64,000 nucleotides of DNA from Owenia fusiformis (Eukaryota > Annelida > Polychaeta > Sabellida > Oweniidae): positions 4,650,001 through 4,714,000 of the forward strand of contig CAIIXF020000001.1 in assembly GCA_903813345.2 (NCBI GenBank). The letters run 5' to 3'. This document shows positions 8,190-53,748 of the stretch, one piece after another. The translations under genes were made by a program, and so were the position numbers. Within the stretch, counting starts at the first letter, position 1; each line of letters begins with the position of its first letter. The notes below the pieces were generated by a model that was given only the letters and a program-made list of their open reading frames with translations, was not told where the DNA came from and did not search any database.

Positions 8190-8193
8190 TTAA

Positions 8194-11088: not shown

Positions 11089-11155
11089 CGTCCGTCTGTC
11101 CGTCTGTCTGTCTGTCCGTCTGTCTGTCTGTCCGTCTGTCTGTCCGTACGTCCGG
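11089..11155. repeat. GTCTGTC/GTCC microsatellite
   Basis: A run of gtctgtcc/gtctgtct units lies just inside the left end of the 12.2 kb element. It opens a low-complexity frame that is not a gene. Helentrons and their non-autonomous relatives often carry tandem repeats near an end. Confidence 0.8.
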
Positions 11156-12140: not shown

Positions 12141-12348
12141 AAAACTCCCCTGATTTCTTAAAAATAGACTGAACTGGTAGACTCACCTGGAGCCACCATG
12201 TTGTTTTTTTTATATGTTGTGGGCTCGCAAACAATTTTCAAGGCTGACCTTACAGTTTATGGTTATGTAGTATATATTGTTGATATATTTGTGATGAATG
12301 CAATCTTAATCACTCTGTGTTTTATATTATTTTTATTTTATTTTTCAG

Positions 12349-12462
12349 AAAACTGAAGAATGGAAAGACATTCAACTCCAGTTTCAAAAATATGGCAAAG
12401 CAATAAAGGAAGGGATTCCAAATGTTAATTGTGGAATGGCCCTGTGGTCATTGCACAATTAA
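12349..12462 (+). other. Candidate captured terminal exon (37 codons)
   Basis: A strong acceptor (pyrimidine tract ending tttttcag at 12348) is followed by an open frame of 37 codons ending in TAA. It reads KTEEWKDIQLQFQKYGK... and closes ...NCGMALWSLHN. The composition looks coding and the reading frame is clean. It is followed by AT-rich sequence with a possible late signal (aataaa at 12721). No upstream partner exon is recognised inside the Helentron. It may be a host exon captured by the element, or a real exon of an unrecognised gene. I do not recognise the protein. Confidence 0.35.
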
Positions 12463-13535: not shown

Positions 13536-13559
13536 ATGAATTGAAGAATTGATGCAGAA

Positions 13560-15068: not shown

Positions 15069-15077
15069 GCACAAAAA

Positions 15078-18000
15078 ATGTCTAAAAGGGAAAAAAGAAA
15101 AGATGAGGAGTATAGAACAGTTGAGCGTCAAAATGAGAAGACATTGAAGAAAAAGAAGAGAGAAAATGAAGAGTATAGAACAAGTGAACGAGAAACTCAA
15201 AAGAAGATCATCAAAAAGAAGAGAAAAAATGAAGAGTATAGAACAAGTGAACGAGAAACTCAAAAGAAGTTTAACAAAAGAAAGAGAGAGAACGAAGAGT
15301 ATAGAACAATGGAGCGTCAAAATGAGAAGACATTCAAGAAAAAGAAGAGAGAAAATGAAGAGTATAGAACAAGTGAACGAGAAATTCAAAAGAAGATCAT
15401 CAAAAAGAAGAGAGAAAATGAAGAGTATAGAACAAGTGAGCGAGAAATTCAAAAGAAGATCATCAAAAAGAAGAGAGAAAATGAAGAGTATAGAACAATT
15501 GAGCGAGAAATTCAAAAGAAGATCATCAAAAAGAAGAGAGAAAATGAAGAGTATAGAACAAGTGAACGAGAAACTCAATTGAAGTTTAACAAAAGAAAGA
15601 GAAAGAACGAAGAGTATAGAACAATGGAGCGTCAAAATGAAAAGACATTCAAGAAAAAGAAGAGAGAAAATGAAGAGTATAGAACAAGTGAGCGAGAAAT
15701 TGAAAAGAAGATCATCAAAAAGAAGAGAGAAAATGAAGAGTATAGAACAAGTGAGCGAAAAATTCAAAAGAAGATCATCAAAAAGAAGAGAGAAAATGAA
15801 GAGTATAGAACAAGTGAACGAGAAACTCAAAAGAAGTTTAACAAAAGAAAGAGAGAGAACGAAGAGTATAGAACAATGGAGCGTCAAAATGAGAAGACAT
15901 TCAAGAAAAAGAAGAGAGAAAATGAAGAGTATAGAACAAGTGAACGAGAAACTCAAAAGAAGTTTAACAAAAGAAAGAGAGAGAATGAAGAGTATAGAAC
16001 AAAGGAGCGTCAAAATGAGAAAACGTTCAAGAAAAAGAAGAGAGAAAATGAAGAATATAGAACAGAACAACAACAGGCTCGAAAAAAACGTATGCAGGCT
16101 AAAGATATCCACCAGATCATCAAGGACTTTCAGAAAAAGATTTCTCATGGTCCTGAATATGTATGTTACAGTTGCAATCAACTTTTCTACCGACATTCGG
16201 TAGTAACAAATAGGACTGACTCTGAGAACAACTGGGTTTGTAATACATGTAATGCATATTTGAAGAAAGGTAAAATTCCACCGTGCTCCATCAATAATGG
16301 GATGGGATTTCCCCATGTTCCTGAACCTGTCAAAGATTTAACACCTCTTGAGTGGAGACTTCTGTCACCTAGGCTGGCTTTTATGAAACTGCGAGCAGGA
16401 CCAAGTGGTGGCCAAAAAAAGTTGTTAGGTAATGTTGTTAATATTCCCTGTGATGTGGCAGACACCGTAGCTTCTCTTCCAAGATTACATACTGATACAC
16501 AAACAATACATTTGAGGTTGAAAAGGAACCTTAAATATAAAAGTTTCGTTAGCTCTGAAAATGTAAGACCAGAAAAAGTAAGACATTGTGCATCTATCCT
16601 GACAAAAGCACCTCTATATAATTCTCTTGGTGTCAAGGTAGATGCTGCATGGTCATACCAAGACCCTCACGATGAATCTGCTGCGAATGAAACAGATGAA
16701 AATGAAACTGAAATAAGGTCATCTAAACATATCATAAGCAGCAGTGATCAAAATAAAACTGATATAAGTGGCTCCTCTGAAATTATTCCAAGTGACAATG
16801 ATCCAAACAACAACCTTCAAAAGGAAAACACTGATGAAGATGTTTGGGAGGAAGAATGTACTAACACAAGTCAAGGGTCAGAAGACACAATGTTGACAGC
16901 ACCTGACTTCATAGAACCAACTGAAAGAGATTATGTGTACAACATAGCACCTGGCCAGCATAGTACTCCTGTAAGCATATTTCAGGACATTTATTCTGAG
17001 GAACTAGCATTTCCTGATATATTTATTGGAAATGCTAGACCTTCAGAAAGGAAGGTCAACGTTCATTATAGTGACATAGTGAAATCAGAGCTTCGTAATG
17101 TTGACAGAAGAGCTGCCAGCAATGTTGAAAATATATTTTTCAAGGTAAAGAAACTCCAAATGAAGCAGTTGATTGACAAAACTAATATTGCAGTCAGGAA
17201 ATTCAAGAAAGGAACCATCACAGCTGGAAGGGCAAAAGATCCAGAACAAATGAAAAATTTTGTAAGTCAAGATAAAGGCTACAAAGTGCTCTCAACAATA
17301 CGAGGCTCTCCACCATACTTTCAAAAAGCACATAAGGATTTGTTAGCTATGCTACGATATCTTGGGCCACCAACCTTATTTGTCACACTCTCTGCTGCAG
17401 AAACACGTTGGAACCATCTTCTGAAAATTCTGAAGAAAACTGTTGACAAAGAAGATGTGTCTGATGAATACATTGACAACCTAACTTGGAATGAGAAGTG
17501 CCGTTTGATTCAGAGTGACCCGGTCACTTGTTCTCGACACTTTGATTATCAATTTACAGTACTCATCAATGATGTACTAAAATCTAGTGCATGTCCTCTT
17601 GGAGTCCTTTCTGACTACTTTTGGCGAAATGAATTCCAGCAACGTGGATCAGTCCATAGTCATGGTTTAATGTGGTTCAGAGATGCCCCAAAGCTGCCAC
17701 TGAACCCTGTTGCTGAAGACATTGCTGAAATTTTACAATATGTAGATGCCAACATAACATGTAGTATGCCCAGCGAGGAAGAGGACCATGAGCTTGCAGA
17801 TTTGGTTAAACTCCAGTTGCATCGCCACTCACACACATGCAGAAAAGGTGGTAGAGCTGAATGTCGTTTTGGATATCCCCTTCCTCCAATGCGCACAATT
17901 CAGCTATTAGAACCACTAGATGAAGATGAACCTGATTTGGAAAAACACAAAACAAACTGGAAGTCAATTCATAAAATATTAGTGGACATGAAATATGGAG

Positions 18001-21000
18001 AAGATATCAGTTTTGATGAATTTCTCAAGAAGATTGATATGACTGAGACAAACTACATCCTCGCTGTTAGGTCAAACTTAAAGAGAAAAGACATATTTCT
18101 GAAACGGTCCCCTAATGAAATTCGAATAAATGCATACATTCCATTCCTAACTAAATTGTGGAGAGCAAATTCGGATGCTAAGTTTTGCCTTGACCCTTAC
18201 GCGATAGCTATGTACATATCATCTTATATCCTCAAAGACCAAAAAGGCATGAGTGAAATACTGAAATCCTGCTGCGATGAGATAATTCAGGGTTCTAAGT
18301 CCTTGAAAGAGCAGTTGAGAATAATTGGAAGTAAATTTGTGAACACAGTAGAAATATGTGCACAAGAAGCTTGTTACTTAGCACTACAATTACCTTTGAA
18401 AAGAGCATCCAGACAAGTGAAATTTGTGAATACAAGTGAATCTGAAAAGAGAGTTGTTCTTCTTAAACCTACACACATGTTAGAGAAGATGGAAGATGAT
18501 GATGAAGATGTTAACATTAAAGATCAAGTTACAAAGTACACTGAACGTCCAAAGTCCCTTGAGCACACTTCTTTCGCAGAGTTCAATGCTTACTATGACA
18601 TCAGATCATCAATGAAAATGGAAGAGAAAAATGATGATGAACCTGATTTGGATGACAATGTAGCAGATGCTGTCACTAAAGATGTTCTAAGGAGAAAAAC
18701 TCCATACATATTGAGAACAGTGCATTTTAACAGAGACAATGACCCAGAGAATCACTTTAGAGAGATGATAATGTTATATACAGCTTGGAGAAATGAAGCT
18801 TCTTTAATTGGGCATTGTAAGACATTTCAAGAAAGATTTGATCAGGTCAAAGAATCTGTTCTCTTGGAAAAAGCAAAATTTGAACCATATACAGACTTGC
18901 TTGATGAAGCCATTGATGCTGCACAAAATGATAATATTCAAACTGAATATAATGATTTTTCCCCATCTACTCAAGCAGAGAGTTTGAATGATGCTCAAAA
19001 AGAAAAAGAAATCCTTGAAAAACTTCAGGATGATATCCCTCAATTTGAATATAATTTCACAGATGCTCCTAACATCGAAGAACAACTGAAACTCTCAAAG
19101 GAGATGCAAGATGAAGATTATAGAATGCTAATGCGTTCATTGACACAAAGACAGATGGAATACCTGAATGAAATCGTCAACCATATCAAGACAACTGACG
19201 AACCAATCTACAGATTCCTTAGTGGAGGAGCGGGAGTTGGGAAAACCTTGGTCACTAAAGCAGTTTTTCAAACTCTTCTGAAATTTTTCAACAAGAGATT
19301 GACTCAAAACCCTGAATCATTGTATGTTTTACTCGCAGCACCAACTGGAAAAGCAGCATTCCTGATTGAGGGTAACACACTCCATACTGCTTTTAAAATT
19401 CCTATCAATCAACAGGGATATATAAACCTTACGAATGACCAGAGAAATACTTTACAGGTAAAGTTACAGGATCTGAAACTAGTGATTATTGATGAAATAT
19501 CAATGGTTGGAACTAATCTGTTTCATTACGTCCAAACAAGACTTCAGGAAATAACAGGTAGTTCTAAAGATTTTGGTGGTGTATCGGTACTCACTGTTGG
19601 AGATTTTGGTCAGTTGCAACCAGTTTTCGATAAATACATATTTGAATCAGCAAAAAGTGGATATGCAGTTCTTGCAAAGAACTATTGGGAAAAATTCAAA
19701 CTGATGGAACTGACAGAAGTCATTCGCCAACAAGATACAAAGTTTGCTGAATCACTTAATCGCTTAAGAGTGGGACAGCATACCAAAGATGATATAAATC
19801 TGTTCAAAACTAGACTTGTTACAAACGATGCTGAATGTCCTACAGATGTTCCATATCTTTTTCTTTCAAATGCAAAGGTTGACTCACACAATGAGAAAGT
19901 TTTCCTCCAGTCAAAAGGAGAGAAGTGTCAGTTTCTTGCCAAAGACAGTATTGTTGGTGCTATATCACCTGAAATTAAAGACAGAATCTTGAACTCTATT
20001 CCAAATGACCCCAAGAAAACAATGCAACTTGCAACCAATCTTCAGGTAGCCACTGGGCTGCAGTATGACATATCTGTCAATATCGATGTGGAAGATGGAT
20101 TGACTAATGGGACTACTTGTGAACTTAAAAGCTTTATTCACAACAAGACAACAGGCACAGGAATATGCTGGGTCAAATTCAATGACTCAAAAGTGGGCAG
20201 AAATGCCAGAAACAACAACAAGGGGTTAAAGGGCCAGCCAACAGAGAGTGGTTGCACTCCTATTCTACCAGTCAGTCGGCAGTTTAGAGTTGGGAAGTAT
20301 AAGTCCTGCAGTGTCATGCGTAAACAAATTCCCCTTAGACCAGCATCAGCAAAAACTGTATGGCGTTCACAAGGGGACACGATGGATCGAGCTGTGATAG
20401 ACCTAAGTGGAAAAACAACACCACATGTTTATTATGTTGCTCTCAGCAGAGTGAGATCTTTAGAGAACTTATATCTCATAAATTTTGATGAGAAAAAAAT
20501 CAAAGTTAGTGAAGATGTATTACAGGAAATGTCCAGATTAAGAGGTGAAACTGAACTGACATACAAAGGCATTCTTTCTCAAAACTCCAACATGATAATC
20601 ACATATCTGAATGTACAGAGCCTACATGCACATATAAGTGATGTTCGAGCACATACAGCATTATTATCTTCGCATGTGCTTCTTTTAAGCGAGACTCGCT
20701 TACTCCCAACGGACACTGACATTGGCATTGCAGAATATAGTGAATTTCATAACATGGCATTTTCCCAAAGTGACAAAAATCGCCCATATTATGGGACAAG
20801 CATATATCACAAAACCAATAATGATACACACAGTGTTTCATCAAACAACATGAATGGCATAGAGGTTACTATCATCACAGTTATCCACAGTGGCAGCCTT
20901 ATTGGTGTTTGCGGAGTGTACAAACCACCTAAATGTAGTGTTCATTTGTTAACATCTGCTATGGAAAATGCACTAAACAGAAGCAAGCAAATCAAGAACT

Positions 21001-21230
21001 GGATCATCTTGGGTGATATGAATACAAACATTAATGAAACAGGTTACCACATGCTACTGGAAGCTATGGAGAGGATTGGCTTTAAACACTGTCAAACATC
21101 TTGCACCACTGATGGAAGAACAACAATTGACCATATTTTCACAAAACTGCCACTATCTCTAGAATTTGTTGTAGGGACAGAGGAGGTATATTATTCATAT
21201 CACAAAGCAATATGGTTGTCATTCAAATGA
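15078..21230 (+). CDS. Helentron Rep-helicase-endonuclease polyprotein (2050 aa)
   Basis: Replication-type transposase of the Helitron superfamily. Domains in order: an N-terminal charged repeat region (about residues 10-345, 16 units of 21 residues); a zinc-binding region with C363-x2-C366 and C388-x2-C391; the conserved LTPLEWRLLSPRLAFM and LLGNVVNIPCDV blocks; an HUH nuclease (Rep) with GPPTLFVTLS and the two histidines H860 and H862 (VHSHGLMW); paired tyrosines Y1046 and Y1050 (MYISSYILKDQKG); a PIF1-like superfamily 1 helicase with Walker A GGAGVGKT (1383-1390), Walker B IIDEIS (D1472-E1473), GDFGQLQPV and a late YVALSRVRSL motif; and a C-terminal exonuclease/endonuclease/phosphatase domain with E1872 and GDMNTN (1979-1984). 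That fusion defines Helentrons. The final endonuclease motif reads S-Y-H (2040-2042) where the family has S-D-H, so the endonuclease may be inactive. The start ATG at 15078 is the first in frame after an in-frame TGA; the natural start may be at 13560. Confidence 0.9.
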   Translation: MSKREKRKDEEYRTVERQNEKTLKKKKRENEEYRTSERETQKKIIKKKRKNEEYRTSERETQKKFNKRKRENEEYRTMERQNEKTFKKKKRENEEYRTSEREIQKKIIKKKRENEEYRTSEREIQKKIIKKKRENEEYRTIEREIQKKIIKKKRENEEYRTSERETQLKFNKRKRKNEEYRTMERQNEKTFKKKKRENEEYRTSEREIEKKIIKKKRENEEYRTSERKIQKKIIKKKRENEEYRTSERETQKKFNKRKRENEEYRTMERQNEKTFKKKKRENEEYRTSERETQKKFNKRKRENEEYRTKERQNEKTFKKKKRENEEYRTEQQQARKKRMQAKDIHQIIKDFQKKISHGPEYVCYSCNQLFYRHSVVTNRTDSENNWVCNTCNAYLKKGKIPPCSINNGMGFPHVPEPVKDLTPLEWRLLSPRLAFMKLRAGPSGGQKKLLGNVVNIPCDVADTVASLPRLHTDTQTIHLRLKRNLKYKSFVSSENVRPEKVRHCASILTKAPLYNSLGVKVDAAWSYQDPHDESAANETDENETEIRSSKHIISSSDQNKTDISGSSEIIPSDNDPNNNLQKENTDEDVWEEECTNTSQGSEDTMLTAPDFIEPTERDYVYNIAPGQHSTPVSIFQDIYSEELAFPDIFIGNARPSERKVNVHYSDIVKSELRNVDRRAASNVENIFFKVKKLQMKQLIDKTNIAVRKFKKGTITAGRAKDPEQMKNFVSQDKGYKVLSTIRGSPPYFQKAHKDLLAMLRYLGPPTLFVTLSAAETRWNHLLKILKKTVDKEDVSDEYIDNLTWNEKCRLIQSDPVTCSRHFDYQFTVLINDVLKSSACPLGVLSDYFWRNEFQQRGSVHSHGLMWFRDAPKLPLNPVAEDIAEILQYVDANITCSMPSEEEDHELADLVKLQLHRHSHTCRKGGRAECRFGYPLPPMRTIQLLEPLDEDEPDLEKHKTNWKSIHKILVDMKYGEDISFDEFLKKIDMTETNYILAVRSNLKRKDIFLKRSPNEIRINAYIPFLTKLWRANSDAKFCLDPYAIAMYISSYILKDQKGMSEILKSCCDEIIQGSKSLKEQLRIIGSKFVNTVEICAQEACYLALQLPLKRASRQVKFVNTSESEKRVVLLKPTHMLEKMEDDDEDVNIKDQVTKYTERPKSLEHTSFAEFNAYYDIRSSMKMEEKNDDEPDLDDNVADAVTKDVLRRKTPYILRTVHFNRDNDPENHFREMIMLYTAWRNEASLIGHCKTFQERFDQVKESVLLEKAKFEPYTDLLDEAIDAAQNDNIQTEYNDFSPSTQAESLNDAQKEKEILEKLQDDIPQFEYNFTDAPNIEEQLKLSKEMQDEDYRMLMRSLTQRQMEYLNEIVNHIKTTDEPIYRFLSGGAGVGKTLVTKAVFQTLLKFFNKRLTQNPESLYVLLAAPTGKAAFLIEGNTLHTAFKIPINQQGYINLTNDQRNTLQVKLQDLKLVIIDEISMVGTNLFHYVQTRLQEITGSSKDFGGVSVLTVGDFGQLQPVFDKYIFESAKSGYAVLAKNYWEKFKLMELTEVIRQQDTKFAESLNRLRVGQHTKDDINLFKTRLVTNDAECPTDVPYLFLSNAKVDSHNEKVFLQSKGEKCQFLAKDSIVGAISPEIKDRILNSIPNDPKKTMQLATNLQVATGLQYDISVNIDVEDGLTNGTTCELKSFIHNKTTGTGICWVKFNDSKVGRNARNNNKGLKGQPTESGCTPILPVSRQFRVGKYKSCSVMRKQIPLRPASAKTVWRSQGDTMDRAVIDLSGKTTPHVYYVALSRVRSLENLYLINFDEKKIKVSEDVLQEMSRLRGETELTYKGILSQNSNMIITYLNVQSLHAHISDVRAHTALLSSHVLLLSETRLLPTDTDIGIAEYSEFHNMAFSQSDKNRPYYGTSIYHKTNNDTHSVSSNNMNGIEVTIITVIHSGSLIGVCGVYKPPKCSVHLLTSAMENALNRSKQIKNWIILGDMNTNINETGYHMLLEAMERIGFKHCQTSCTTDGRTTIDHIFTKLPLSLEFVVGTEEVYYSYHKAIWLSFK
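15105..16070 (+). repeat. 63 bp coding repeat, 16 units, in the Helentron N terminus
   Basis: Each unit encodes 21 residues with the frame K-x-K-R-x-N-E-E-Y-R-T-x-E-R. Three unit types differ in the last third: A (ERQNEKTFK), B (EREIQKKII) and C (ERETQKKFN). The order is A B C A B B B C A B B C A C A, then a last degenerate unit. The dense alternating charge predicts a long single or coiled helix. Because the unit is a multiple of three, the opposite strand is also open for 425 codons. Confidence 0.9.
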
Positions 21231-36700: not shown

Positions 36701-39700
36701 AGGGGTACAAATTATAGCCCATGGGAGGTAAAATGGCCACAAAATCTAAAAGCTGAAAAAGTAGGATATAATAATCCATACATATATGAAAAATCATACT
36801 GGGAACATGACAAATTATGTCTTGTAAAATCATGATCTGAACGCACGCCTTGAGGCTCATTCTGACTCCACTAAAAGTACATGTGCATGTAAACCATATC
36901 TTGTAGAATTTTGTGAAGGTGAGATGTATGCATGAAAAAGTCTGCACTCATGAATGGAATTGTATTCAGTGCAAAATGTTAAAAAAGCTTTAATTTAGAT
37001 ATGATTTTAATTGCAGCTACTGCAGCTGCTGAAGACAGAATCATACAATGCCAACACTACAAAATTCAATGCTAATGCTCAATTCCATCTCGAATTTATA
37101 TCCATATGCCACATCAACAAGGTCCCTGTAATCATGCTGGACCCAGCCCTGGTACAGAACAATGTTACGACTTCATACAATCTGAGGCTTGGCCTGTTCA
37201 ACTCATCCCTAGTGTCATATGGCATCAAAAGTGATGATTTGACTCAACCTTTAATGGTAAGACTCTCATGATCGACATCATCTTTGCACACTCGGCCTTC
37301 CCTGGGACCAACAGGAGCCGAGTGTATGAAGATGGCTAAACATGGTCCATCCTTCCATGATAATCATATGTGTACAAGGAAACCACATATGCTAAACATC
37401 TTAAGATACATGCAGGACATGTATTCAATTTTCCTACCCATGCAGAGGACTAGGCTACATGACTTTTGAGAGGCAGTCTTCCAGTGTATGGTAAAACACA
37501 AAAATCATATGTATATGTCTGTATGTATATATAAACTTTATATGAATCTACATTTGTGTCAGAATCAGCATTTATCAAGTTGTTTATTGAGAATATGTAT
37601 ATACATTATACATGTATTCAGAGCTGACATCTTGTCATGTTTTCTTAGATTGTAACTTTGCTGATATGAGTTGAACGATGGCATCCATAGCAATACACTC
37701 ATACCCACAAAATTGTTAATAAATAGGCAAAATTTGGAGACAGCTGTTTAAATATTCTATATTTTTCTATTTTAGGTTAAATTGTACCATGCTCTAGCTG
37801 TAAACAACTACAACATTGCGCTACTAAAAGGCGTTGATAAAAAAGGTGAACATTATCCCTATCATGCATTCCTAAAGACTAAAGTATCAAATACAACAGC
37901 ACCATCTATAAAGCAGTGGATCCACATAGCAATCATACACCATAGACATGGCAAATATTATTGGATAGGGCCATTGCTAGAGGGGAACCATGCCAAGAAA
38001 CATCCACCAGTAAAGAGCATTAGCTTTCCAGCAGCATTTGATAGGTAGGGGAGTATTACTTGTGTATGGGACCTTCAATAATTAATGGTATACAGCATAA
38101 CATCTCTTAATTATTTGACAAGGTCTTTAAGCATGCATGGGCATAAATAGAGTGCAGTAAAACCTGGCTCATCCAGATGCCACTGAGACCAGTCAAAGAT
38201 GTTCAGATTAGCAGGTGTTCACATTTGTAGGCTTTTTAAATAAGTGAGTCATTGGAAGATAACAAATTTGTGACAGAAACAAGTGTTCAGTTGAAAAGTG
38301 CTTCATTTAGAGAAGTTCAGATTTCATAAAATACAGATTTCACTGTACTTTCTGTTTGCGGCATAAATAGATTGCTTGAACTCAAACTATACAGAGTTTG
38401 CATTTTAATATAGTTCCAATTCTTCATACAATTATCTTAATATTTTCAGTTTTGATGTTACAACCAGTGATATTCCTGGACTATACGTACCTTCATCTCC
38501 CTCCAAATATCTCTCCAATTTAAAACATTCCAAGTTCATCCCGTGCAACAGGACCCGGGCTGATGAATTCAATGCAGCCAGTAGCAAGCAAACCAGCAAA
38601 CATAATGTTGACACAACTGCCAAGAAAGCACAGCAGATTCTGCAGGCTACTAAAGCTGTGTTTGATGAAGTTGGAATGGAGTTCTGGCTTATTGGAGGTA
38701 CCCTTTTAGGTAAAGCATTTTGTTTCTCACACATGGGGCTCTATCAAGTTAAGGTATGTGGGATAAGAAACTCAGGGAACTTTAACTGGCGAGGGACTGA
38801 GTCATGCAGGTTGTCAGAAATGGCAATGACATAATGTTTTGTTGGTTCCACCGAACAGCAACTTTGTGATCTCAATTTTGTATATGGGAACTGTATCGAA
38901 ATAGCTTGGTATGTAGCTTTATTCTCATTTTGGTATAGACAATGTAGCTTTATTTATAGGTTGGTATAGACAGTGTGGTTTTATTGCTCACACTACTGAT
39001 GTAGATGTTGGTGCCTGGATTACAGATCTTAATCCAGAACTGGAGACACTCCTCAAACGCAAGGGACAACCCATCAGGCTGATGTACCACTTTGGCAAGG
39101 TAAACTTACCAAGATTGAACATAATTATCCAGATTTGCTATAGAGCCTCAAGAAGGGGGTTTAGGCACTTTTAATTGGTTCATGTGGTGCACCTATGGGA
39201 TTGCTCACTCAAAGATGTGGAGCTTAGCAATATATATCATCTACAAACCTATGCATTTCATCATTAAAATGAATGGCAGACACAATAATGTGTTAGAAAA
39301 GAGGCTTCAAAAAGTCTGTTTCAGCTTTATTTTCAATTTATTTGTTTAAAATATACATAAAAACAGTTTTCTGTTTCCAATGCCAACATGATTAATAATA
39401 ATAATGAGTGAAAACCTATTAAATTATTTTTCATCATTTTAGCCTGAAGATGGTCTAGAGTTTGCCGTTCAGGGTTTTGGTATCAAAATGGACATATGCT
39501 TCCATTATATTGAGTCCAACTACACATGGATCGGTGGAATACGTAGCCAGTCACTAGAAAAATTACGCTGGCTTTATCCCGCCAATATAACATTATGCTC
39601 TGCTGAACTATTTGAAGATCTCTATCTTGTGCCATGTGACTCCCTGGCCCATATAGAGGCTGATTATGGAGCAAATTGGATGCTTCCGGACGATAAATGG

Positions 39701-39784
39701 ATATGGGATAGTTCTCCACCAAATATGGTCGAAGCGGGAAAGTTTGCAGAGTCTGAGAGAAACAAAGTTGTGCAAATACTGTAA
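30777..39784 (+). CDS. FKTN: Fukutin, copy 2 (exons for residues 1-462 after the start exon)
   Basis: Exons read at 30777-30914, 37017-37256, 37776-38044, 38450-38709, 38960-39099 and 39443-39784. All are GT..AG with phases 0, 0, 2, 1, 0, and there are 462 codons before TAA, close to the length of vertebrate fukutin. Exon 1 encodes the type II signal anchor (hydrophobic KINIALLFLVIIALCLNF at residues 6-23) expected for a Golgi enzyme. Later landmarks mirror copy 1: LDPAL, PAAFD, GGTLLGWYRQC, DVD at residues 316-318, EADYGANW and a VVQIL end. The likely role is ribitol-phosphate transfer onto alpha-dystroglycan. Copy 2 differs from copy 1 at scattered sites (for example DICFHY for DIFFHY, DSSPPN for DRSAPN). 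Intron 1 is 6.1 kb and full of repeats; its donor is altered by a transposon. The initiation exon is not identified. Confidence 0.88.
30918..31549. mobile_element. Mariner-type MITE inserted in the splice donor of FKTN copy 2 exon 1
   Basis: The inverted ends are CAGGGTGTCCGGAAAGTAAA on the left and its complement ending at 31549. TA duplications lie at 30916-30917 and 31550-31551. Outer arms of ~45 bp match, including 'gatacaaatgctctaatttt' against 'gagtatttgtatc'. No transposase is present. The element lies inside the former GTAAGT donor of FKTN exon 1. Confidence 0.85.
31916..32043. repeat. Dispersed repeat R1, second copy
   Basis: It matches positions 1-118, including the (acaat)n end, with a small duplicated 'ggtaaa' insert. 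It lies in intron 1 of FKTN copy 2. Confidence 0.6.
32044..32290 (-). repeat. Repeat Y1 (inverted relative of 35440-35620 and 36110-36500)
   Basis: The reverse complement shares 'agcatccatccaatg', 'gactcgaac'/'gttcgagtctgtga', 'agacccctgta', 'atatggagcc'-type blocks and 'cttacataagattg' with the plus-strand copies Y2 and Y3. It is non-coding. Confidence 0.65.
32291..32854. other. Intron 1 interior, nothing recognised
   Basis: AT-rich intron sequence. A short open frame at 32619-32975 shows no domain. Confidence 0.4.
32855..33325. repeat. Foldback element containing a SINE
   Basis: 'gtataaaaacctcctac' at about 32865 and 'gggttcaattttaaagat' at about 32927 recur inverted at about 33300 and 33273. 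This gives arms separated by an insert that is largely the tRNA-derived SINE. Confidence 0.55.
33000..33235 (-). mobile_element. tRNA-derived SINE
   Basis: On the minus strand an A-box-like TAGCAAGTTG (33198-33207) is followed after about 17 bases by a consensus B box GGTTCGATCC (33171-33180). This is the internal RNA polymerase III promoter of tRNA-derived SINEs. The body continues to about 33000 with no cloverleaf, so it is not a tRNA gene. Confidence 0.5.
33520..34140. repeat. Long foldback element in FKTN copy 2 intron 1
   Basis: The left arm (about 33520-33735) and right arm (about 33890-34140) are imperfect reverse complements. Paired blocks include 'gagttgaaatgtcaacacct', 'gttttggagaatat', 'gaaacagctcat', 'attgtttcct-ttgaagaa' and 'cttaagaa'. 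The ~150 bp loop is unrelated. Non-coding. Confidence 0.65.
34141..34479. other. Intron 1 interior, nothing recognised
   Basis: No gene or clear repeat seen. Confidence 0.4.
34480..35624 (+). repeat. Repeat Y2, interrupted by retrotransposon N3
   Basis: 34480-34714 and 35422-35624 together match Y3. Modules start 'ggttaccatggcaacca', pass through 'gaaaaaatgagacctgtat', and after the interruption resume at 'ctccattattcaaaaagtta', 'gagtctgtgaaatagacccc' and 'cataagattgtagca'. Confidence 0.65.
34715..35421 (-). pseudogene. Non-LTR retrotransposon N3, 5'-truncated, with 9 bp target duplication
   Basis: GACCTGTAT occurs at 34706-34714 and 35422-35430. On the minus strand the insert encodes the C-terminal part of a non-LTR polyprotein, open for most of its length: DLRNRFDFKLPRARGTILSR, a WNNISAD block, and the CACGKESETPRHFLFRC zinc-like motif. 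It then has a stop at about 34849 and ends in an A-rich tail (T-rich on the plus strand at 34715-34735). The short length, tail and flanking duplication are classic for target-primed reverse transcription. Confidence 0.85.
35625..35895 (+). pseudogene. Non-LTR retrotransposon N4, C-terminal scrap
   Basis: The plus strand reads YNTRGKSNFTLPKAKTE, then SGSSIWNSLPKEMKKSNS and a lysine-rich end, stopping at 35825. This is the conserved last ~65 residues of CR1/Jockey-type polyproteins. It interrupts a Y-type repeat: 'gtgacaaaata' lies before and 'ataccaatata' after it, as in the uninterrupted Y3. Confidence 0.7.
36110..36660 (+). repeat. Repeat Y3, uninterrupted copy
   Basis: It shares ordered blocks with Y1 and Y2 ('ccatggttaccatggcaacc', 'aaaaatgagacctgtatctc', 'cagcattcatccaatgtg', 'gagtctgtgagat') and with 35895-36000. 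It serves as the empty site for insertions N3 and N4. Confidence 0.65.
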
Positions 39785-43917: not shown

Positions 43918-43923
43918 TTTATT
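43918..43923 (-). terminator. Candidate poly(A) signal of receptor cassette B
   Basis: AATAAA on the minus strand, about 275 bases downstream of the cassette B stop codon. Confidence 0.35.
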
Positions 43924-44195
43924 TTATTTTCAAAGGCTTTCAAAAATCAAATAAATTCCGACTACGACAGATTTATATATTTTAAGCCATGGTCTACAAG
44001 ATGGAAGTTTAAATTTGAGATAATGTGGGGTAGTTCATAATCACCAAGGGTTATTTCAAATCTTGATGAAGCTTGGAACAAGCAAAGGGAACCATGTTTT
44101 TGTTGAATGACGTTAGTCCATGACTTCCATCGGCCGTGCCTTATTGCGGTGGATTACAAGAGGCATTGTCTGGTTTAGAAGTGACCACGAATACG

Positions 44196-45983
44196 CTATC
44201 CCCCCATAACTGGAGGTGTATCTTTCATAATAGCTCCATATACAACCCAATATACAATATTAAACAGCAGAAAACTACATGGAAATATTTTTCTTGAACG
44301 TTTATCTATCATTCGTGCTTTTCTTTTACCGTCCCAATCGGGCATTGTCGCTTTCATTTGTTTTGTACTATTTCCCGAGGATTCCTAAAATACAGAAAAC
44401 AGATATTCACCATACTTCGATCAGAAATCAATTCAAGACTGTAATGTGATGGTGATGGTAAACATATGGTAAAAGAGAAGGCCGACACGATAAGTTTCAA
44501 ATGCATATGCACATGTTAGCAATACTACAATATACAAACTATTCTAACGTACATCACCAGATCCCATATTGTCGGCCTTTCTGCTACCAATCATTCCGGC
44601 AAGTTGTTTTCTCCTCATCCTCATGTTCATGTTGAAGCTTGTACTCTGTGTCTGCTTCCGGGACATAACATTCACCACTGCATATTCCAATAGAGATGAG
44701 AATACAAAGATGAGGCATACGCTCATCCATACATCTATTGCCTTGATGTAGGAGACACGAGGCAAAGAGGATCTGGCTCCTGAACTTTGTGTGGTTGTTG
44801 TTAATACAGTCAACAAACCTTCAAGTAAAAGTTATATTAATGTGAATTCGTAAAAACCATTTGTCCAATATTTCAAACATTACCATTATTTAAGTAAGTA
44901 AATATTATATATTTGCAAAACAATTTAATGAGGACAATACATACATGTATACCAGAACTTTTGGGTATGACTGTTGCGAATGTCTGAATGAATGGAGGGT
45001 GTGTGAAAGTGATTTAATATTTTATCTTTGCCTTGTGTATTATTTCATGTTTGATTTAATAAAAAAATTATTTAAGAAAGTCATGTTTACAGAGAGTTCT
45101 TGCTCCAAAGCCCCGTACCTCATATTCCCCCGCTCTATGACAGAGAGGGTATGGGGTTACAAGGCCTCGAAGAAAAACTAAGCATAGAGCTACTCTATCG
45201 ATTAAGTAGACGTTATATACTTAATCAATTTATTTATGTGTGTATGTTCATGCTCTTGAAAGCCCATGGTTTCATCAAAATGTTGTTTCTAAGACTTTTT
45301 TAATTGTTCATTTGATTAGTGTTTTGAGATATTGTGCAGGAAAATACAATATTGATGCAATTCTCCTCCATGCTTTAACTGCCACATGCTTTTAAACATC
45401 ACATTGGAAATATGCAATACAGGTAAACGTATGTACCTATAGTGACTCTGGCTGGTACAGCATCAACATTAATCCAGAATCCAACCCAGGAGAGAATTAC
45501 AATGAGCCAACTGGGCATATAAATCTGAATTATGTAGTAGCCCAAGTCCCGCTTCAGTTCGAAGTTGATCTGGAGACAAGGATAAGCACCTAAAATAATG
45601 ACAGCATATTTATTTGTTGCGGACCAGTTTTACAATTGAACTCCATAAACTCTCTAATCGTGCATATGCAAGCTCGTATATGTGAATATGTTAATCATTT
45701 TCAGACACTGTTTCTTTGTACATTATTTGGGATATTTGAGATTTGTTTCCTTATACCCAGTCGTACTCTTAATATGGGTGTTTAAACAATCCCTTCCTAT
45801 CTGTGTTTATAATGCTTTTTTGTGAGAGTTGTGGTTACATATTTTCCCTACCCGTGCTATAGTTTTGTGAGCAGTCAATGAGATGGGATTTGATGAGACG
45901 AAACTGTGGCATCTCCAGATGATCCTCGGTTGCTACAGGGGTATCCCACCAATTAAAGTAAAGTGTGCTCTTGGTGTAACCAA
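44196..45983 (-). CDS. GLRA-like: Glycine-receptor-like channel, C-terminal cassette B (loop C, TM1-TM4)
   Basis: Exons in transcript order: 45983-45852, 45589-45437, 44818-44553 and 44384-44196, ending TAG. The first exon starts with the last two bases of a codon, exactly fitting the shared exon at 49483-49565. It encodes [13 protein letters not shown] and loop C with the second disulfide pair (DCSQNYSTG then AYPC), typical of GlyR/GluCl-type subunits. The second exon has TM1 ([19 protein letters not shown]) and the anion-selectivity PAR motif. The third has TM2 with [14 protein letters not shown] and TM3. The fourth has a short cytoplasmic loop, TM4 and the end PPVMGG. Spliced to the shared exons it gives 436 residues with the microexon. 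No N-terminal receptor exons exist in the 0.7 kb between this cassette and cassette A, so it probably depends on the shared head. Alternatively it is a headless duplicate. Confidence 0.85.
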
Positions 45984-45989
45984 CTACAA

Positions 45990-46685
45990 AAAAAATATTG
46001 TATGATAAAGATATATCTGAAATATTTATCAACATATATTTTAAATGGTAATCACTGCCTCTTTAAAGCTAATTTTGATTCTGTCGAGTGTCATCATTTA
46101 TTGAAATACAACATTACACATACATTTACTCCGATTTTAATGGTCAGGTTCATTGAGTTGCCTGATCACGAATCAATACATTGAAATATCTGATATCTTC
46201 TTACCTTCGTTTGTTGAGTATTTCCTCTAAAGTACAACACTAATATTTCATCACATGATACATCCGTACATTGGATAGTTAAAATCCCAAATATTATATA
46301 TTTTATTATTACTATGTATATTTATTTAAACATTCATACAAGTAATAATTTTAGTTGCATTCAATGAATGAAAATGATGTCTATAATGAAATAACATGAA
46401 TAAAACGAATGTTGTAATACTATGCAATATTATGATTGTTCTCAACTGAGCCATTTGTTTTGGGAGTATATGGAGAACAAGATGCATCAATTGAAAAAAT
46501 ATCTGCTGATACAAAGGTAACCGCAGCGTCAGATATTATGTACATGTTCTCTTTCAAGAAATTCTACATTATGTCTTATTTACAAATATGTACAATATTC
46601 CTTTCCTATATGAATGATTGGAAATAGTTTGAAGATATTGTACAGACATAACATCTATATATAAAATTGTCTGCAAGCAAAGTAA
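45990..46685. other. Spacer between receptor cassettes
   Basis: About 700 bp with no receptor-like exon. It carries candidate poly(A) signals for cassette A. Confidence 0.6.
46302..46307 (-). terminator. Candidate poly(A) signal of receptor cassette A
   Basis: AATAAA on the minus strand about 380 bases downstream of the cassette A stop, with another at 46321-46326. Its use would end transcripts before cassette B, so choice of cassette could depend on poly(A) site or splice choice. Confidence 0.35.
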
Positions 46686-47656
46686 TTAACCCCCCATAAC
46701 AGGGGGACTGTCTTGAATAATAACACCATAAACTATCCAATACACAGCATTAAATATTAAAAATGATGTTGGGAATATTCTCCGACACATTTTGTCAATC
46801 ATTCGTGCTCGAAATTTACCATCCAAATCAGGAATTTTAGGAGCATCTAAGAACTCATCATGGGACTCCTTTGTTTCACCATCCTAAAACAGAAATCCAA
46901 ACATCAACACTAATTGAAGTAGCGAATATTATTTTCAAAGATTGGTGGAGTTTTCATCGATATTGTGGAATTCCTACCTCGCTGTCGCTCCCTGAGCTCT
47001 TTTTCCTAAACCGAGAACGTGGTTTCGCTGGCTGAGCTCTCATGAATGGAAGAGGCATTTGTTTAGCCATAAGTGCTGGTGTGATGCTTCTCACTTGCTT
47101 CCTACTAAACACATTCACCACAGCAAACTCTAATAGAGATGCAAAAACAAACAGCAGACAAACACTCATCCAAACGTCTATGGCCTTGACATAAGATACC
47201 CTGGGCAGGGAAGATCTGGCTCCAGAGCTCTGGGTGGTCGTGGTCAATACGGTCAGTAAACCAATAGACACACGAGCAGGAATGGCGTCTACACTAATCC
47301 AGAACGCCACCCAGCTTAGGATGACAATGAGGATGCTTGGAACGTAGATCTGAATGATATAGTAGCCTAAATCCCGCTTCAATTGGAAATTCACTTGCAG
47401 ACAAGGATAGGCACCTGAAACAAAAACCACCACGCCATTTTGCTACACAATCATCTTCATTTACAACAAATAGAAGCCACAAAGGAAAACTACATGAAGC
47501 TGAATATACTTTCATTGAACATACCAGTAGTGTAGTTTTGTGAGCAATCTATTAGTTCTTCGTTGATAAGCCTGTACTGAGGCATCTCGAGATTTTTCTC
47601 TTTATCGACAGGGTTGTCCCACCAACTGAAGTAAACTGTATCCATTGTGTACCCAA
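46686..47656 (-). CDS. GLRA-like: Glycine-receptor-like channel, C-terminal cassette A (loop C, TM1-TM4)
   Basis: Exons in transcript order: 47656-47525, 47414-46978 and 46883-46686, ending TAA. The phase at the 5' junction is the same as in cassette B. It encodes [15 protein letters not shown], loop C with C228 and C239 (numbering for the product with microexon), an N-glycosylation sequon NYT, TM1 (~254-275), PAR at 280-282, TM2 (~282-300), TM3 (~315-335), a basic and Ser-rich cytoplasmic loop ([14 protein letters not shown]) and TM4 followed by PPVMGG. The 437 bp exon corresponds to two exons of cassette B fused, so an intron was lost here or gained in B. With the shared exons the product has 445 residues, normal for a Cys-loop subunit. 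It is a pentameric ligand-gated chloride channel subunit of the GlyR/GluCl group; TM2 is most like glycine receptors. The agonist is not predicted. Confidence 0.88.
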
Positions 47657-49482
47657 CTGTAAAAGCAAACAACCAATATACATGTGCAATACATCTAAGG
47701 CGTTATTTCTATCCTATCGCAAGTTACACAATCCGAACACATCATGGTTAAAGTACTACAGTGATTTACTTTATTGATCATTGACGTGCAATGCTTTTGC
47801 TATGGACGACAACATATTTTGACATTACACGTGAGACAGTGGGATTTGACGTTGCACTGGTGACATCGAGTTTTTGACATAGTACATGTGACATAGGGGG
47901 TAGCTACTGATAAAAACATGTTTGGCGCATGATGGATTGGCCAGACACCTGATGAAATCTAATGAGCTTTCTGCGCTAGATAGTGAGGAAAAGATAGATA
48001 TAGGCAGACTTACAAGCATGCAGACGGCACTGCAGCATGCACAAAGAAACAACGAAGTATTAGTAAATAGAATAACTGTAAAAGTTTTACATTCTTATAC
48101 CATTACCATAAAGTTAGCTTAAGAGACGTACAGATTTTAGCAAAGGATTCTAAGAGAATAATTATGATTATAGCTAGCATATGGTTTCACTATGGTTCTA
48201 ATTTGGGTATTTTTAAAATTTAAATAAACATAAAAAAGAGCAAAATAAATTATGAAGTTTACGTACCGTAACGCTGCGCGCAAATTTTGATTTTCAACCC
48301 CTTCACACATCTTTGGACTTTATAAATCGTCATCTTTTATATCATCTTCCTAAACTTAGACCCAAATCAGTCTTTCAAATTGTTTACATTTTGTGAGATG
48401 ACATGCAGTGCTTGTTCTGTCAATACACATAATGCATATGAAACAAATCTAACTGGGCTATCAAAGTGCTGAAACCAGTTCATGGTCGGGTGTTAATGTG
48501 AAGGGGTTCATGAACAGTCGGAGTTGTATACTGTGAGATAAATGCAGAGAGGTTTGCAAACCGCCCATTGCATCTTGCATATCTTGGGCTCCAGGGGCGA
48601 TACCTAGTGCAGCACAAAGATGTGAGTGTGTGTACAGTAACTCGTGGTAGACAGGTGAAGATAAGCCTGGATATAAGACAGTGACAGGCGCGAGATTTAC
48701 ACACAGGTGGATGCTAGTCTAAAGTACGCACAATGCTGATGTTAGTAGAGACATACATATGGTTTGGCACACCTAACTGGACGATACTCCTAACAATAAA
48801 CCTGCTCTAATAGATATAGGTTGTTAGTAGAAATACAGAGTGTCCATAAAGTCTCTACAATTACAATACAAAATTCTGTGTAAGGTGTAAAGGGACATAA
48901 TGGACACCCTGTATATTCAGAGAGAATAGTGCTAAGATATAGGTCCAACGCAAAGGAGTCAGCAGTTAATCCTTGCTTCGATTTATTGCCATGATAATCC
49001 TTAGCATATCTGAATTAGTTGGTATATCACTTTAGTTAAGCATGCATTTCATTGCAAGTGCACATTAGGTTAGTTTTAGTAAGTATAACAATGTGCAAAA
49101 CACACTTTAACATACGCTTGCAATCAGTGCATTAGTCACACCATCTGACTGTTTTATTTGGTGTTTTGTTATAAATAAGCAACTGAGTTCCTTGATTCAA
49201 TTGTTGTTTTGCCCATCGGCTCTTGGAAGAAAAGACAATTATTTTCTAATTATATCAAGCGATAGCATTTGCTAGATTTTAACACTGCATAAACTACTTT
49301 TTCAATAAATGATGACACCTCACTAAGATTTAGACTGTGTTATTTAATCAGTATCATATATGAAGCAAAATGTGTAATAAAGAAGTTAATATTTGTAGTA
49401 TAGATAGACTATGTCAAATCAATTTAAGGCATTATTATGAAAGATCGATTCTTCTTTTGTAAATTAGGAAAATTGCACTTAC
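47657..49482. other. Receptor intron between the Cys-loop exon and cassette A
   Basis: No exon recognised. It contains a 76 bp MITE at 48836-48911. Confidence 0.5.
48836..48911. mobile_element. Tiny TA-flanked MITE (76 bp)
   Basis: Starts CAGAGTGTCCATAAAG and ends with the near complement CATAATGGACACCCTG, with TA on both sides (48834-48835 and 48912-48913). The ends resemble those of the MITE in FKTN copy 2, so it may be a deletion derivative of a related family. Confidence 0.6.
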
Positions 49483-52400
49483 AACTCTCTATCATGATGG
49501 GACAGAACTGTGTGTCCATGGGATATTTTGCCAGGTTCATCGGACACGACAATGTAACAGTCAATCTGGAAAACAGTTTCATGATTCAATACCTTTAAAT
49601 CAATTATGTTGTATAAATCAAAAAACAGTTTCTTGCAGCCTTCAACTTCCGGCAAATTATAATGTATTAGTTTTCAATTCTGGGAGGTTCTTTGCAACTA
49701 TAGTGTTACAATACTCACATCTCATTTTGTGGATTTGCAATTTATCGTTTTTTTGATTAACAGCGGCAACGTATCCAACCAAGATTTCTCTTGTATAAAC
49801 TACTGAATTATACTTTCTTGTTGTTAATGACATAAACTAGTTTAAGACTCTGGATCTGTGCTATCTATCTTAAAGATCAATACGATATACAGCTTTTCAG
49901 TTACTGGAACTCTTTAATGGTGTTATATGGCCATTTCTTATGATCTATAATGCAACAGATAATGATCCATGTCACAAATATCACTCTAAAATACTCAGCA
50001 ATGTTATTCAGGAATAAAAAAACTCATAACCCTTCATATTTGAACAGTAAAATATATTAAGTGTCCAAACTATTGTCTGTTAAGGATCATTTTAAACAGT
50101 TGATCCAATAAATTGATATTAGTGTCTGATATATTATGACTGGTGTACTTCCTAAGAGTTGATATATAATGTTAGTGTTATAAATGTATATAAGTAATGA
50201 CATTGCACTCACTTCATTGCATACCATATTTTGCCATCGTCATATAATCTCATTAAACGATTGGGTATTGTGACGTCATGAAATGCTGCTTTCTTTTCAT
50301 TTCTAAATGTGGTGTCAGGTACCCAAAGCTGACTCCACATCCCATCAGCCAGTTTTATCATACCCGATTCACCCTTTTTCCTTTTGTCCTTTTTAGCTAA
50401 TCGTGGCTCATACCATGTTTGACGAAAGTATATGTTCACCGAATAATCCTGTAATTAGAAAAAGGAATATTTATGTACAAGTAGCCTACATCTATAGTAA
50501 GGTTATACTTACTCAGTTTTGAATTCTTCATATTTACATTCACAAAAGTTATTAAAAAAATTACCACAAAGTGTGAATGACTGCACTAAAATGATGATGG
50601 ACCCATTGCTTTTCTTCTGGCATTATTTTGGAGTGACACCTATCCCACTTATTGTCATTTAGCTCAAGTGACAGATAATCGACCTTTTTGTGTATAGAAA
50701 CTAAGTGTTCATGTTATCTCATTTTCAAGAAAGGATAGCTCAAATTAAACCTGTGGATTTCAATGACACTTAATGCCTCAGTCAAATTTGCTACAGCAAC
50801 CGTAGTCCTAAACGAAACAGTTATAACTCCAGATTATAATATTTCACAGCGAACATACGGCCTGTAAAAATGGGATGCACGACATGGCGACAGACGATTT
50901 GTATAGTCGCCAATCGATCGTGGTCTACAATCGTCGTGTGGTCGCCATAGAACGAATGTGACTTAGGCGTAAATATTCACCCTTGATGTTTCCCTCTAAT
51001 ATTCAAGAAAATGCCAAAGACGTGATATTTAGGGCCCCTTGGCCTAGAATTGACCATATAATGAACTGTACGCAGTCTTCAATTTTGAGAGGGGGGCTTC
51101 CTTGCTCTTTCGTGTTATGAAAAATATGTTGTCTGAAGAGGATAAGTGAACTAGATAAAATCTAATCAATAATTCTTATTGCATGAATATATAGTTAATC
51201 ACATGTCTTATTGTACCAGGTTGTTAGAATTCAATAGTCTATTGTTATCAAATGGGAATTAGATATGCCACTAAGAATTCTTAACATGGTTTTTCGTTTA
51301 TACATGTATATCATGATCGATTTCTATGCACTTGTAGATCTTTATCTGATAATAGTGTTTGATAACAAACTGACAAAACAATGATTTTTTACTTTTAGTA
51401 GTATGTGTAGGACCGGAATATACGTACACTTACCATTGTTTGCTCACTGATTGAATAAAATGTGTTTATATATATTCCTATTTTGACTTCTGTTGGATCA
51501 GACCCATGTGGGGAGTCCCTTTTGTCATACTTAATGTCCTTTCCTCGAATCTTTATCGTCCTAAAGCACAATATAGCATTTGATTATAAAAACTATTCAT
51601 TATACATGAAATATTGCTTCATTAGTTGATATTGTACATCAAATTTGGATACTATTTTACACTATTAAAAACAAATAAAATGTTCAGGAAAATTATGATA
51701 ATAAATTTAAAAGATATAATAAAAATATAAGAAGCATCTAAAATAAACTAACATATAGAGAGCAGAAAAGGACAAAGTGAAATAGCAAAGTGTGAAGAAT
51801 CATTTTGAACAAAATAGACGGATGAAGGGAAGTGTAAACTCGGAAAACAAACGTATGTATTATATAAATAGAACTATTGGATTTGAATTGTGTGTTAGGA
51901 ACATTCTCTTGGAAACTATTGTTTGATCATTCAAAAATCATAACACAATTAAAGTGCAACATGCAACCAAAGAGTAAACATTATACACACTTTCTTGACA
52001 CAAACGTTCTCATCTAGAAAAGAATTGGACAGATACATTTGTAAAATGCACATACATATCACGACCAGGTACTATAAGTGATATGGGCATTCAGCATACC
52101 TGTAAAAACGTGATAAATGATGATGTTCACTAAAAGGAAATATTAGATCAACACGTCAAAAATGACGCCATGCTACATGAGTCCCGGGTGAGTGGCGTGC
52201 AATGATGTTCCAATCTAAAGGGCCTCCAACTACAAACATACCTAGCTTTTTCAACTCTAGGATCATCGCTGCATTAATATAAACATAATCCATAATATTG
52301 TCAAAGATTATATCAGGTACCTCTATTATTTAACACATCCACAATTTCCGTAAAATGTCCTGTAAACAGGGATGCCAAGGATAAGTATTTGTGAAGGGTA

Positions 52401-53748
52401 GAGGTGAAAATCAATTTTGTTAAACTGCAGGCAAAACCTATATTAGTATTTTTAATGTATAGATAAGAGGAAGCCGGCACGCGTTTCATAAAGCAAAGCG
52501 TTGGATAGGTATATTGGTATATTTGAGCGCGCTAAAGCTGTGTTTCCTGCTACCTTTCTCCAAGCCAATTAGGCTTAGGCCTACGGCCTCGGGAACCCTT
52601 CCTCCTCTTTACAGTTACATTTCTACAATATAAAAAAGTATTGTGAACAGTTTGAGAAATATACCAAGCGGATCTCAAACATAATAGGATCCATGAATTG
52701 ATTATATGAATCCGGATCCAAAAAATCCAATCCGAGGTTTATTCACGACCAACCTTAAAACGGAGTATCACAAACATGAATCAGATTACATAGTACAAGT
52801 TATTAGTTGGTTGAACTATTAAAATTTAAATTGTTAGGTGAACAATAGCATGCTTTTTAAAAGGATTGCTTCAAACATGTTCTTTATTATTTTGCTGCAA
52901 TATTACGTTTACCTGTAAAGTACAAAAGATTTTATTGAATGATGGAGTCAATAATGTCAATCAATATTTGCAAATATTTGCAATCTTAACATTTTCAACG
53001 TTTTTTGAAAGCGACAATGTATATCACTGGAATTAAGTATGTGCATTTTGGAATTTAGGACTAAGGCAAAATTGGAAATAAAAGAATGAATATAAGCCAA
53101 CAGTCTCCACGCACGATCTGACTCAAAGTTCAAGATACACAGAGCCGACGATAGACCATTATCTTATTCCTAAATTGCCATATTTGAACCAAGGGACAAG
53201 GAAATATTGACAAGGAAACGTCATATTTAAGAGAATGGAGTTTGCATTAATTTATGTTAATCCCAAGTTGAACATTACCATAGTTACCAGTCAGTAAACA
53301 GCTGTTTTATTACTTTTCAAAATCGTATATTTTATTCTCAATGAGGCACAATTGTGCGATTAAGAAAAATAACGACTTAAATATATTTTAATCTTGTCAG
53401 GAAAAAGTTCACGATTTTTATTTAGTATTACATAATTGTATATCATTTATTCCAGAGGGATAAATCATAGAAAGATTCGCCATCGGCTCTTCCGATTTAT
53501 CAGAGACACATAATATTTATATGTCTCTGGATTTATGTATGTCAGGATGAGAATGATAAATATATATAATAACTAGGTCTCCTTTTTCTAGATAGAGTGC
53601 TTATAATCACCCCGTTATTTATTTTTATTATGAAAATGGATGCATGAACTTACCGATCTCCTCCCCTTGCATCTAGATCTTTGGCGTAAATAGCCAATGT
53701 TTCTATGACAACCAGAAGCAGGATGTATATGTCAGTTTCAATCCACAT
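49483..53748 (-). CDS. GLRA-like: Glycine-receptor-like channel, shared N-terminal exons (signal peptide to Cys-loop)
   Basis: Exons in transcript order: 53748-53654 (ATG; signal peptide MWIETDIYILLLVVIETLA), 52129-52100 (30 nt microexon), 51560-51434, 50448-50213 and 49565-49483. All junctions are GT..AG. Phases run 2, 2, 0, 2, 1. The last is an 83 nt exon, the size also found in vertebrate glycine receptor genes. The product covers the first part of the extracellular ligand-binding domain: [34 protein letters not shown] (read as [15 protein letters not shown] then [14 protein letters not shown]), WVPDTTFRNEK...FHDVT, and the Cys-loop C170 to C184 with PMNL and YPMD inside. It stops before loop C. 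Either downstream cassette A or B completes the protein in frame. The promoter and 5' UTR upstream of 53748 are not recognised. Confidence 0.85.
50884..50948. repeat. Hairpin in receptor intron
   Basis: Arms 'atggcgacagacgatttgta' and 'tacaatcgtcgtgtggtcgccat' pair imperfectly around a short loop containing 'caatcgatcg'. Probably the core of a small MITE. Confidence 0.5.
52100..52129 (-). other. 30 nt microexon of the receptor gene
   Basis: Preceded by ccttttag and followed by gtatgc on the minus strand. Its 30 bases keep phase 2 on both sides and add ten residues (EHHHLSRFY plus a junction Arg). Skipping it joins CG to G and also keeps the frame, so the microexon can be optional. Confidence 0.6.

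Follow-up and report, generated by a model that had tools for sequence, protein, structure and literature searches.

The window analysed here is a stretch of 64 kb without any N (C1:4,650,001-4,714,000) from the 498-Mb genome of Owenia fusiformis. In this genome, contigs C1 to C12 have matches at tens of megabases, and forkhead domains (38 matches) were located on nine of them (C1, C3, C4, C5, C6, C8, C9, C10 and C11); Fox genes of O. fusiformis are described from nine of 12 chromosomes (PMC9539403), which are numbered differently from the contigs. On the minus strand of the window we found a receptor gene (C1:4,694,196-4,703,748) in which four head exons are followed by two tails, A and then B (table 1). 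The head encodes a signal peptide and the ligand-binding domain through the Cys-loop. Tail A (47656-46686, three exons) and tail B (45983-44196, four exons) each contain TM1-TM4, a stop codon of their own and a downstream AATAAA, and neither is interrupted before that stop, in agreement with the two complete tandem cassettes described by the initial annotation. The introns of the gene have GT and AG at their ends. The predicted products are 435 amino acids long for the head joined to tail A and 426 for the head joined to tail B.

Table 1. Exons, intron and candidate poly(A) signals of the receptor gene, in positions of the window
Feature	Position	Strand	Description
Head exon 1, 95 nt	53654-53748	-	Start codon ATG, signal peptide; donor CG/GTAAGT; in-phase join to exon 2
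Head exon 2, 127 nt	51434-51560	-	N-terminal extracellular domain; split in two in paralogue L001/L011
Head exon 3, 236 nt	50213-50448	-	Loops D, A and E of the ligand-binding domain; PF02931, E 3.6e-10
Head exon 4, 83 nt	49483-49565	-	Cys-loop; 3' boundary within the Phe codon of loop B (T/TT); shared donor GAGTT/GTAAGT
A exon 5, 132 nt	47525-47656	-	Remainder of loop B, loop F, loop C (first half)
A exon 6, 437 nt	46978-47414	-	Remaining loop C, TM1-TM3 without TM2 intron, start of cytoplasmic loop; PF02932, E 4.1e-30
A exon 7, 198 nt	46686-46883	-	End of cytoplasmic loop, TM4, stop
AATAAA, putative poly(A) signal, tail A	46321-46326	-	360 nt beyond the A stop; a second at 46307
B exon 5, 132 nt	45852-45983	-	Phase shared with the A copy
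B exon 6, 153 nt	45437-45589	-	Remaining loop C, TM1, start of TM2
TM2 intron of B	44819-45436	-	Not in A; a dispersed repeat lies partly inside it (about 44900-45079)
B exon 7, 266 nt	44553-44818	-	TM2-TM3, start of cytoplasmic loop
B exon 8, 189 nt	44196-44384	-	End of cytoplasmic loop, TM4, stop
AATAAA, putative poly(A) signal, tail B	43923-43928	-	268 nt beyond the B stop; a second starts at 43923

The two tails begin with exons of equal length and identical phase, as had been noted before. Both copies of exon 5 measure 132 nt, are of phase 1 and fit the shared 83-nt Cys-loop exon (49565-49483); this exon splits the loop B Phe codon (T/TT), and the missing TT is supplied by A exon 5 as well as by B exon 5, each of which leaves phase 1 again. 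Judged by eye, the donor of B exon 5 (G/GTAGGG) looks weaker than that of A exon 5. The head had previously been given five exons and the products 445 and 436 residues. We found four exons that join in phase, and a head of four exons yields the shorter lengths given above. The extra 10 residues would fit the sole open AG..GT candidate of 30 nt in intron 1 (about 52129-52100), which was rejected as a fifth head exon: its support is an open frame, no homology was found for it, and by a rough estimate a few such candidates would be expected by chance against the one seen. Head exon 2 is split in the nearest paralogue (L001/L011, at C1:10.96 Mb), and for this reason the ancestral head may have had five exons, the intron within exon 2 having perhaps disappeared from the window gene.

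The Cys-loop of the shared head, with 13 residues between its cysteines (CPMNLAKYPMDTQFC), and the PAR motif that precedes TM2 in both tails (VDAIPARVS in A and VDAVPARVT in B) identify the gene, by its sequence, as an anion-type Cys-loop receptor subunit. The transmembrane domain PF02932 was recognized on A and on B (E 1.1e-39 on B), and the second cysteine pair, that of loop C, is present in both. The two products had been expected to differ in loop C, but the loop reads CSQNY[T/S]TGAYPC in both tails and the contacts are the same; the differences between A and B lie instead in loop F and in the strands before loop C. The expected difference in the pore was confirmed and consists of Ser versus Thr at one position of TM2, which would be the 2' position.

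When product A was used as query, the best matches among solved structures were GlyR alpha subunits, with GlyR alpha-3 in first place (9boy_A, E 1.1e-110). The proposed assignment to the GlyR type therefore stands as far as overall similarity goes, but glycine is unproven as the agonist, because the shared head carries an arginine in loop A and is without two residues of the GlyR box. Where GlyR has PDLFFANEK in loop A the window gene has PDTTFRNEK (FFA to TFR), and where GlyR has NVLYSIR in loop E it has KIWYAMK (Ser to Ala). The arginine (TTFRNEK) also occurs in the paralogues L001, L002 and L005. Together with the Ala of loop E it is common to the four genes of the group to which the window gene belongs, and the loop A aromatic has been lost in the window gene only. 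In a study on these channels, a loop A arginine marks lophotrochozoan glutamate-gated channels, the motif also including a Ser in loop E, and a Glu in loop B is linked to glycine and GABA binding (PMC4338433). If the sites are equivalent to those of that study, as we infer, the window gene has the loop A Arg of lophotrochozoan GluCls but not their complete AAA motif with the loop E Ser (KIWYAMK, with Ala), and it has kept the initial Glu of loop B (IMIESFGYT), which is missing by the criteria for those channels.

A repeat analysis matched the two tails at the DNA level in three stretches of 143, 164 and 167 nt, with identities of 71, 73 and 74%, respectively. These stretches coincide with the coding sequence of exon 5, TM1 and TM2-TM3, and no similarity was found by this analysis between the introns of A and B. 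The TM4 exons fell below the threshold of the repeat analysis, yet over 49 residues they show 69% protein identity. An origin of the two tails from haplotypes or from faulty assembly was considered and seems unlikely: the three matching stretches diverge by 26-29%, no similarity between introns was found, and a protein search of the genome (97 of 142 candidates scored) listed near-identical exons at the locus itself only. As proteins, the tails differ at 14 of 44 positions in exon 5 and at 13 of 106 in TM1-TM3. Pairwise counts gave a pS of 0.69 against a pN of 0.20 for exon 5, 0.79 against 0.10 for TM1-TM3 and 0.67 against 0.24 for TM4. With synonymous sites near saturation while the protein is conserved, the comparison indicates that the duplication is old, that the protein has been kept and that tail B has long been under selection. 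In a tree of TM1-TM3, in which one of eight inner branches was firm, A and B grouped together with moderate support (81/88).

These results bear on the possibility that cassette B is an unused, headless relic of a tandem gene duplication, that is, a pseudogene. Such a relic would account for the failure to find a head for B in the window, and B has accumulated more unique changes in TM1-TM3 than A (8 vs 2 with L001 as outgroup, 7 vs 3 with L3, 7 vs 3 with L4 and 7 vs 1 with L6), which suggests that tail B may be less constrained than tail A. However, B is open across four exons with GT/AG ends and fitting phases, and it combines a nearly saturated pS with a low pN. Under neutral decay stop codons are expected: in a simulation of tail B that involved substitutions only, 279 of 2000 copies were free of stops at 0.05 substitutions per site and 60 of 2000 at 0.1, but 0 of 2000 at 0.3 and likewise 0 of 2000 at 0.8. 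Moreover, B has retained a TM2 intron of distant paralogues. This intron is of phase 1 and lies in a Gly codon of TM2; its position and phase are matched in three of the seven loci displayed (L008, L014 and L017, all of them distant paralogues), the other four having an intron elsewhere or one that the display did not place. On this evidence we consider it very unlikely that B is a relic.

No TM2 intron is present in A or in the TM1-TM3 matches of L001, L003, L004, L006, L007 and L012. Tail A was also considered as a retrocopy, since the TM2 intron is missing from it; its other introns, however, are present. As for dispersed repeats within the introns of the gene, the one at window 44900-45079, in the TM2 intron of B, has dozens of copies genome-wide among the matches listed, and the one at window 48833-48974, in the intron before tail A, had a single match among those listed (92%, at C1:4144417).

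A second head was searched for with the head exons by tblastn (E up to 5). None was found in the 702 nt between the cassettes, as the initial annotation had maintained, nor elsewhere in the 64-kb window, where the best stray matches (E 0.13 and 0.20) were at chance level. Genome-wide, the group of the window gene comprises four heads (C1:4.70, 10.97, 0.64 and 0.597 Mb) and five tails. The genome was searched exon by exon and these counts are lower bounds; the group was taken as the tails at least 78% identical to A over TM1-TM3, plus B, limits on which the trees give no firm answer. Two genes just outside these limits (C2:23.12 and 5.45 Mb), whose tails are 72 and 71% identical, have one head and one tail each, so that adding them still leaves a surplus of one tail.

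Cassette B could instead be a separate gene with its head elsewhere, be it far away, trans-spliced or missed by us. Divergent exons may indeed escape an exon-by-exon search, and a head-like exon at C1:35803423-35803674 has no tail within the 7 kb fetched; this exon, however, is only 39% identical to the window head. A separate gene is also at odds with the absence of head exons from the gap and from the remaining window, which is free of N, and with the donor of the window head, which fits B exon 5 in phase. We regard this explanation as extremely improbable. A DNA search of the genome with the whole locus, in which 39 of 412 candidates were scored, listed nothing but dispersed repeats and the pair of 0.6-Mb paralogues, and says little about near-identical copies because the locus itself was also absent from its listing.

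The locus therefore most probably represents a single gene for a pentameric (Cys-loop) chloride-channel subunit, with a shared head and two alternative tails from which two subunits would be made. A comparison with unc-49 of Caenorhabditis elegans had already been proposed, and it remains the best explanation of the anatomy of the locus; it is strengthened by synonymous sites that approach saturation while the protein is kept, by the one surplus tail in the group of the gene and by the extra copies of exon 5 that its three nearest paralogues carry, although its junctions are predicted ones. Anatomy, phases, conservation and the search for another head come directly from the sequence, and from them we infer both splice junctions, the choice of poly(A) site and that the products either form channels or join them. 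For the first message, the donor of exon 4 (49483) would be spliced to A exon 5 (47656), and 3' end formation about 0.4 kb beyond the A stop would end the message at a poly(A) site near 46.3 kb. For the second, the same donor would be spliced to B exon 5 (45983) across an intron of 3,499 nt, within which tail A would be removed together with its stop and poly(A) signal, and the message would end near 43.9 kb. The ratio of A to B would presumably be set by 3' end formation at A in competition with splicing to B. The two subunits would be alike in loops D, A and E, in the Cys-loop and in the loop C contacts, and would differ in loop F, in one residue of TM2 (Ser/Thr) and in the cytoplasmic loop.

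Phase by itself does not force two products, because other joins keep the frame too. Two of these in-phase joins run from A exon 5 to B exon 6 and from A exon 6 to B exon 8; the inclusion of both exon 5 copies and the skipping of exon 5 are in phase as well. Exon 5 might accordingly be chosen freely, with the mixed tails A exon 5-B exon 6 or A exon 6-B exon 8 also being made, in a small combinatorial set. Three paralogue genes in which two or three copies of exon 5 stand before one tail would set a precedent, the choice of exon 5 being separate there from the tail. In the window gene, however, every copy of exon 5 has its own complete tail, stop and AATAAA, and the stop and AATAAA of A are located between A exon 5 and B exon 6. 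We find mixed tails unlikely and retain the reading of two complete alternative tails.

The comparison with paralogues included 15 genes, that is, the window gene and 14 GlyR/GABA-like genes (23 loci were fetched, chosen from the matches of the genome search); the set does not include loci of nicotinic type or the copy of the C2:18-Mb gene on C124. Copies of exon 5 were counted by tblastn (E up to 0.05) within the fetched stretches only. Five of the 15 genes have at least two copies (three in L002/L003 and two each in the window gene, L001, L004 and L015), seven have one (L006, L007, L008, L012, L017, L018 and L021), and in the remaining three (L013/L014, L020 and L022) exon 5 was not detected at this threshold. 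A second full TM1-TM3 was detected in one gene out of 15, the window gene. Because the three closest paralogue genes carry exon 5, and not the tail, in two or three copies before a single tail, the sequences indicate that multiplication of exon 5 is recurrent. In L001 the asymmetric 83-nt exon (exon 4) is duplicated as well, and including both copies would cause a frameshift. A more distant GABA-like gene, L015 (C2:23.33 Mb), has its two copies of exon 5 at 6795-6881 and 4908-5009, with AG and GT ends.

The nine exon 5 copies of the group of four genes are 132 nt, or 129-138 nt, long; each is bounded by AG and GT and completes the Phe codon of loop B. In six within-gene pairs of copies, three of which come from one gene, differences are most frequent in alignment columns 15-26 (61% of comparisons), the stretch of loop F, and rarest in columns 1-4 (8%) and in columns 38-46, the tip of loop C (20%). 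This pattern suggests that the core of the agonist site is altered less by the copies than the parts around it. In the exon 5 tree, L1a grouped with L1b (89/90) and L4a with L4b (65/74). The groupings A5+L1a (p-AU 0.086), B5+L1b (0.106), A5+B5 (0.482) and the three L2/L3 copies (0.376) were not rejected, and the 44 columns of this alignment are compatible with a single ancestral multiplication as well as with multiplication gene by gene.

With some reserve, we favor the view that the four GlyR/GluCl-like genes diversify the agonist site through a choice among tandem copies of exon 5, to each of which the window gene would add a pore and a cytoplasmic loop of its own. If each copy were used singly, the four genes would give rise to 11 subunits: two from the window gene, 2 x 2 from the gene at C1:10.96 Mb (its two exon 4 copies counted), three from that at C1:0.60 Mb and two from that at C1:0.61-0.64 Mb. 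If this view is true, they would form an evolutionary series from an alternative exon to an alternative receptor half within one gene family.

Some of the paralogues showed peculiarities of their own. The TM1-TM3 exons of the neighbouring genes L003 and L004 (C1:606 and 616 kb), which lie in opposite orientation, have a pS of 0.29, compared with 0.79 in TM4, which suggests gene conversion of the single TM exon. A 78-nt tandem array of 15.7 copies (L005:8678-9901, C1 about 641.2-642.4 kb) reaches the end of the fetched piece; it overlaps the second head exon of the receptor at C1:0.61-0.64 Mb, and degenerate copies of this exon recur along the array. Another 78-nt tandem array, of 6.9 copies (L007:2148-2684, C2 about 5.4466 Mb), derives from the 3' part of the third head exon in another receptor gene and, like the former, begins inside the exon. 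In the C2:23.12-Mb receptor a short TM2-like stretch (L006:3093-3161; weak match, E 0.012) was seen between the third and fourth head exons. Finally, the small contig C155 of G000 holds about five Cys-loop receptor genes in 18 kb (638-18059), several of them with head and membrane domain in one open frame.

Similar layouts exist in nematodes. In unc-49, the first exons, which encode most of the extracellular domain, are shared and are followed by alternative blocks of 3' exons, which carry distinct parts of the binding site and transmembrane region (PMC6920096). The C. elegans gene differs in having three tails instead of two and in being of the GABA-receptor type, and its subunits are established, whereas those of the annelid gene are predicted from sequence. 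The nematode avr-14, which encodes a glutamate-gated chloride channel, is laid out as the window gene is (PMC3144221), irrespective of the exon at which the tails branch, and for it there are cDNAs and rescue experiments. The exon 5 copies of the paralogues recall instead exons 6a and 6b of insect RDL, alternative exons of an anion channel subunit which differ near loop F (PMC2064938); in RDL the exon varies and the tail does not, and no homology is claimed. Among annelids, Alpo5 and Alpo6 of Alvinella pompejana are described as anion channels of high identity to GlyR alpha that are opened by glycine, GABA and taurine (PMC4801368); the strings "splic" and "isoform" have no occurrence in the main text of that paper.

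Among the titles and abstract beginnings listed by searches of open-access literature, we found no gene of the glycine-receptor group, nor any annelid gene, with alternative tails. The layout itself is known from unc-49 and avr-14, and here it occurs in another receptor group and probably another phylum; new would be the family series from a multiplied exon to a duplicated tail. If confirmed, the sharing of a head known from nematode GABA and glutamate receptors would also exist in an annelid receptor of the glycine/glutamate type, which would suggest that the same solution arose repeatedly. The paralogues would further suggest a route, exon 5 having been multiplied in several genes and the whole tail in one. 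Such genes would offer natural pairs of subunits that differ in exon 5 alone or from exon 5 onward, useful for asking which part of a receptor serves which function.

The window contains other features besides the receptor gene. Two closely similar pairs of open frames, compared by eye, are located on the plus strand about 34.8 kb apart (3798-5020 and 38409-39784); they had no Pfam match at E 0.001 and are probably a duplicated gene. Also on the plus strand, an open frame of 2053 amino acids (15069-21230) has Helitron-like N-terminal, PIF1 helicase and endonuclease domains, and this Helitron-type transposon has repeats at the N-terminal end of its frame.
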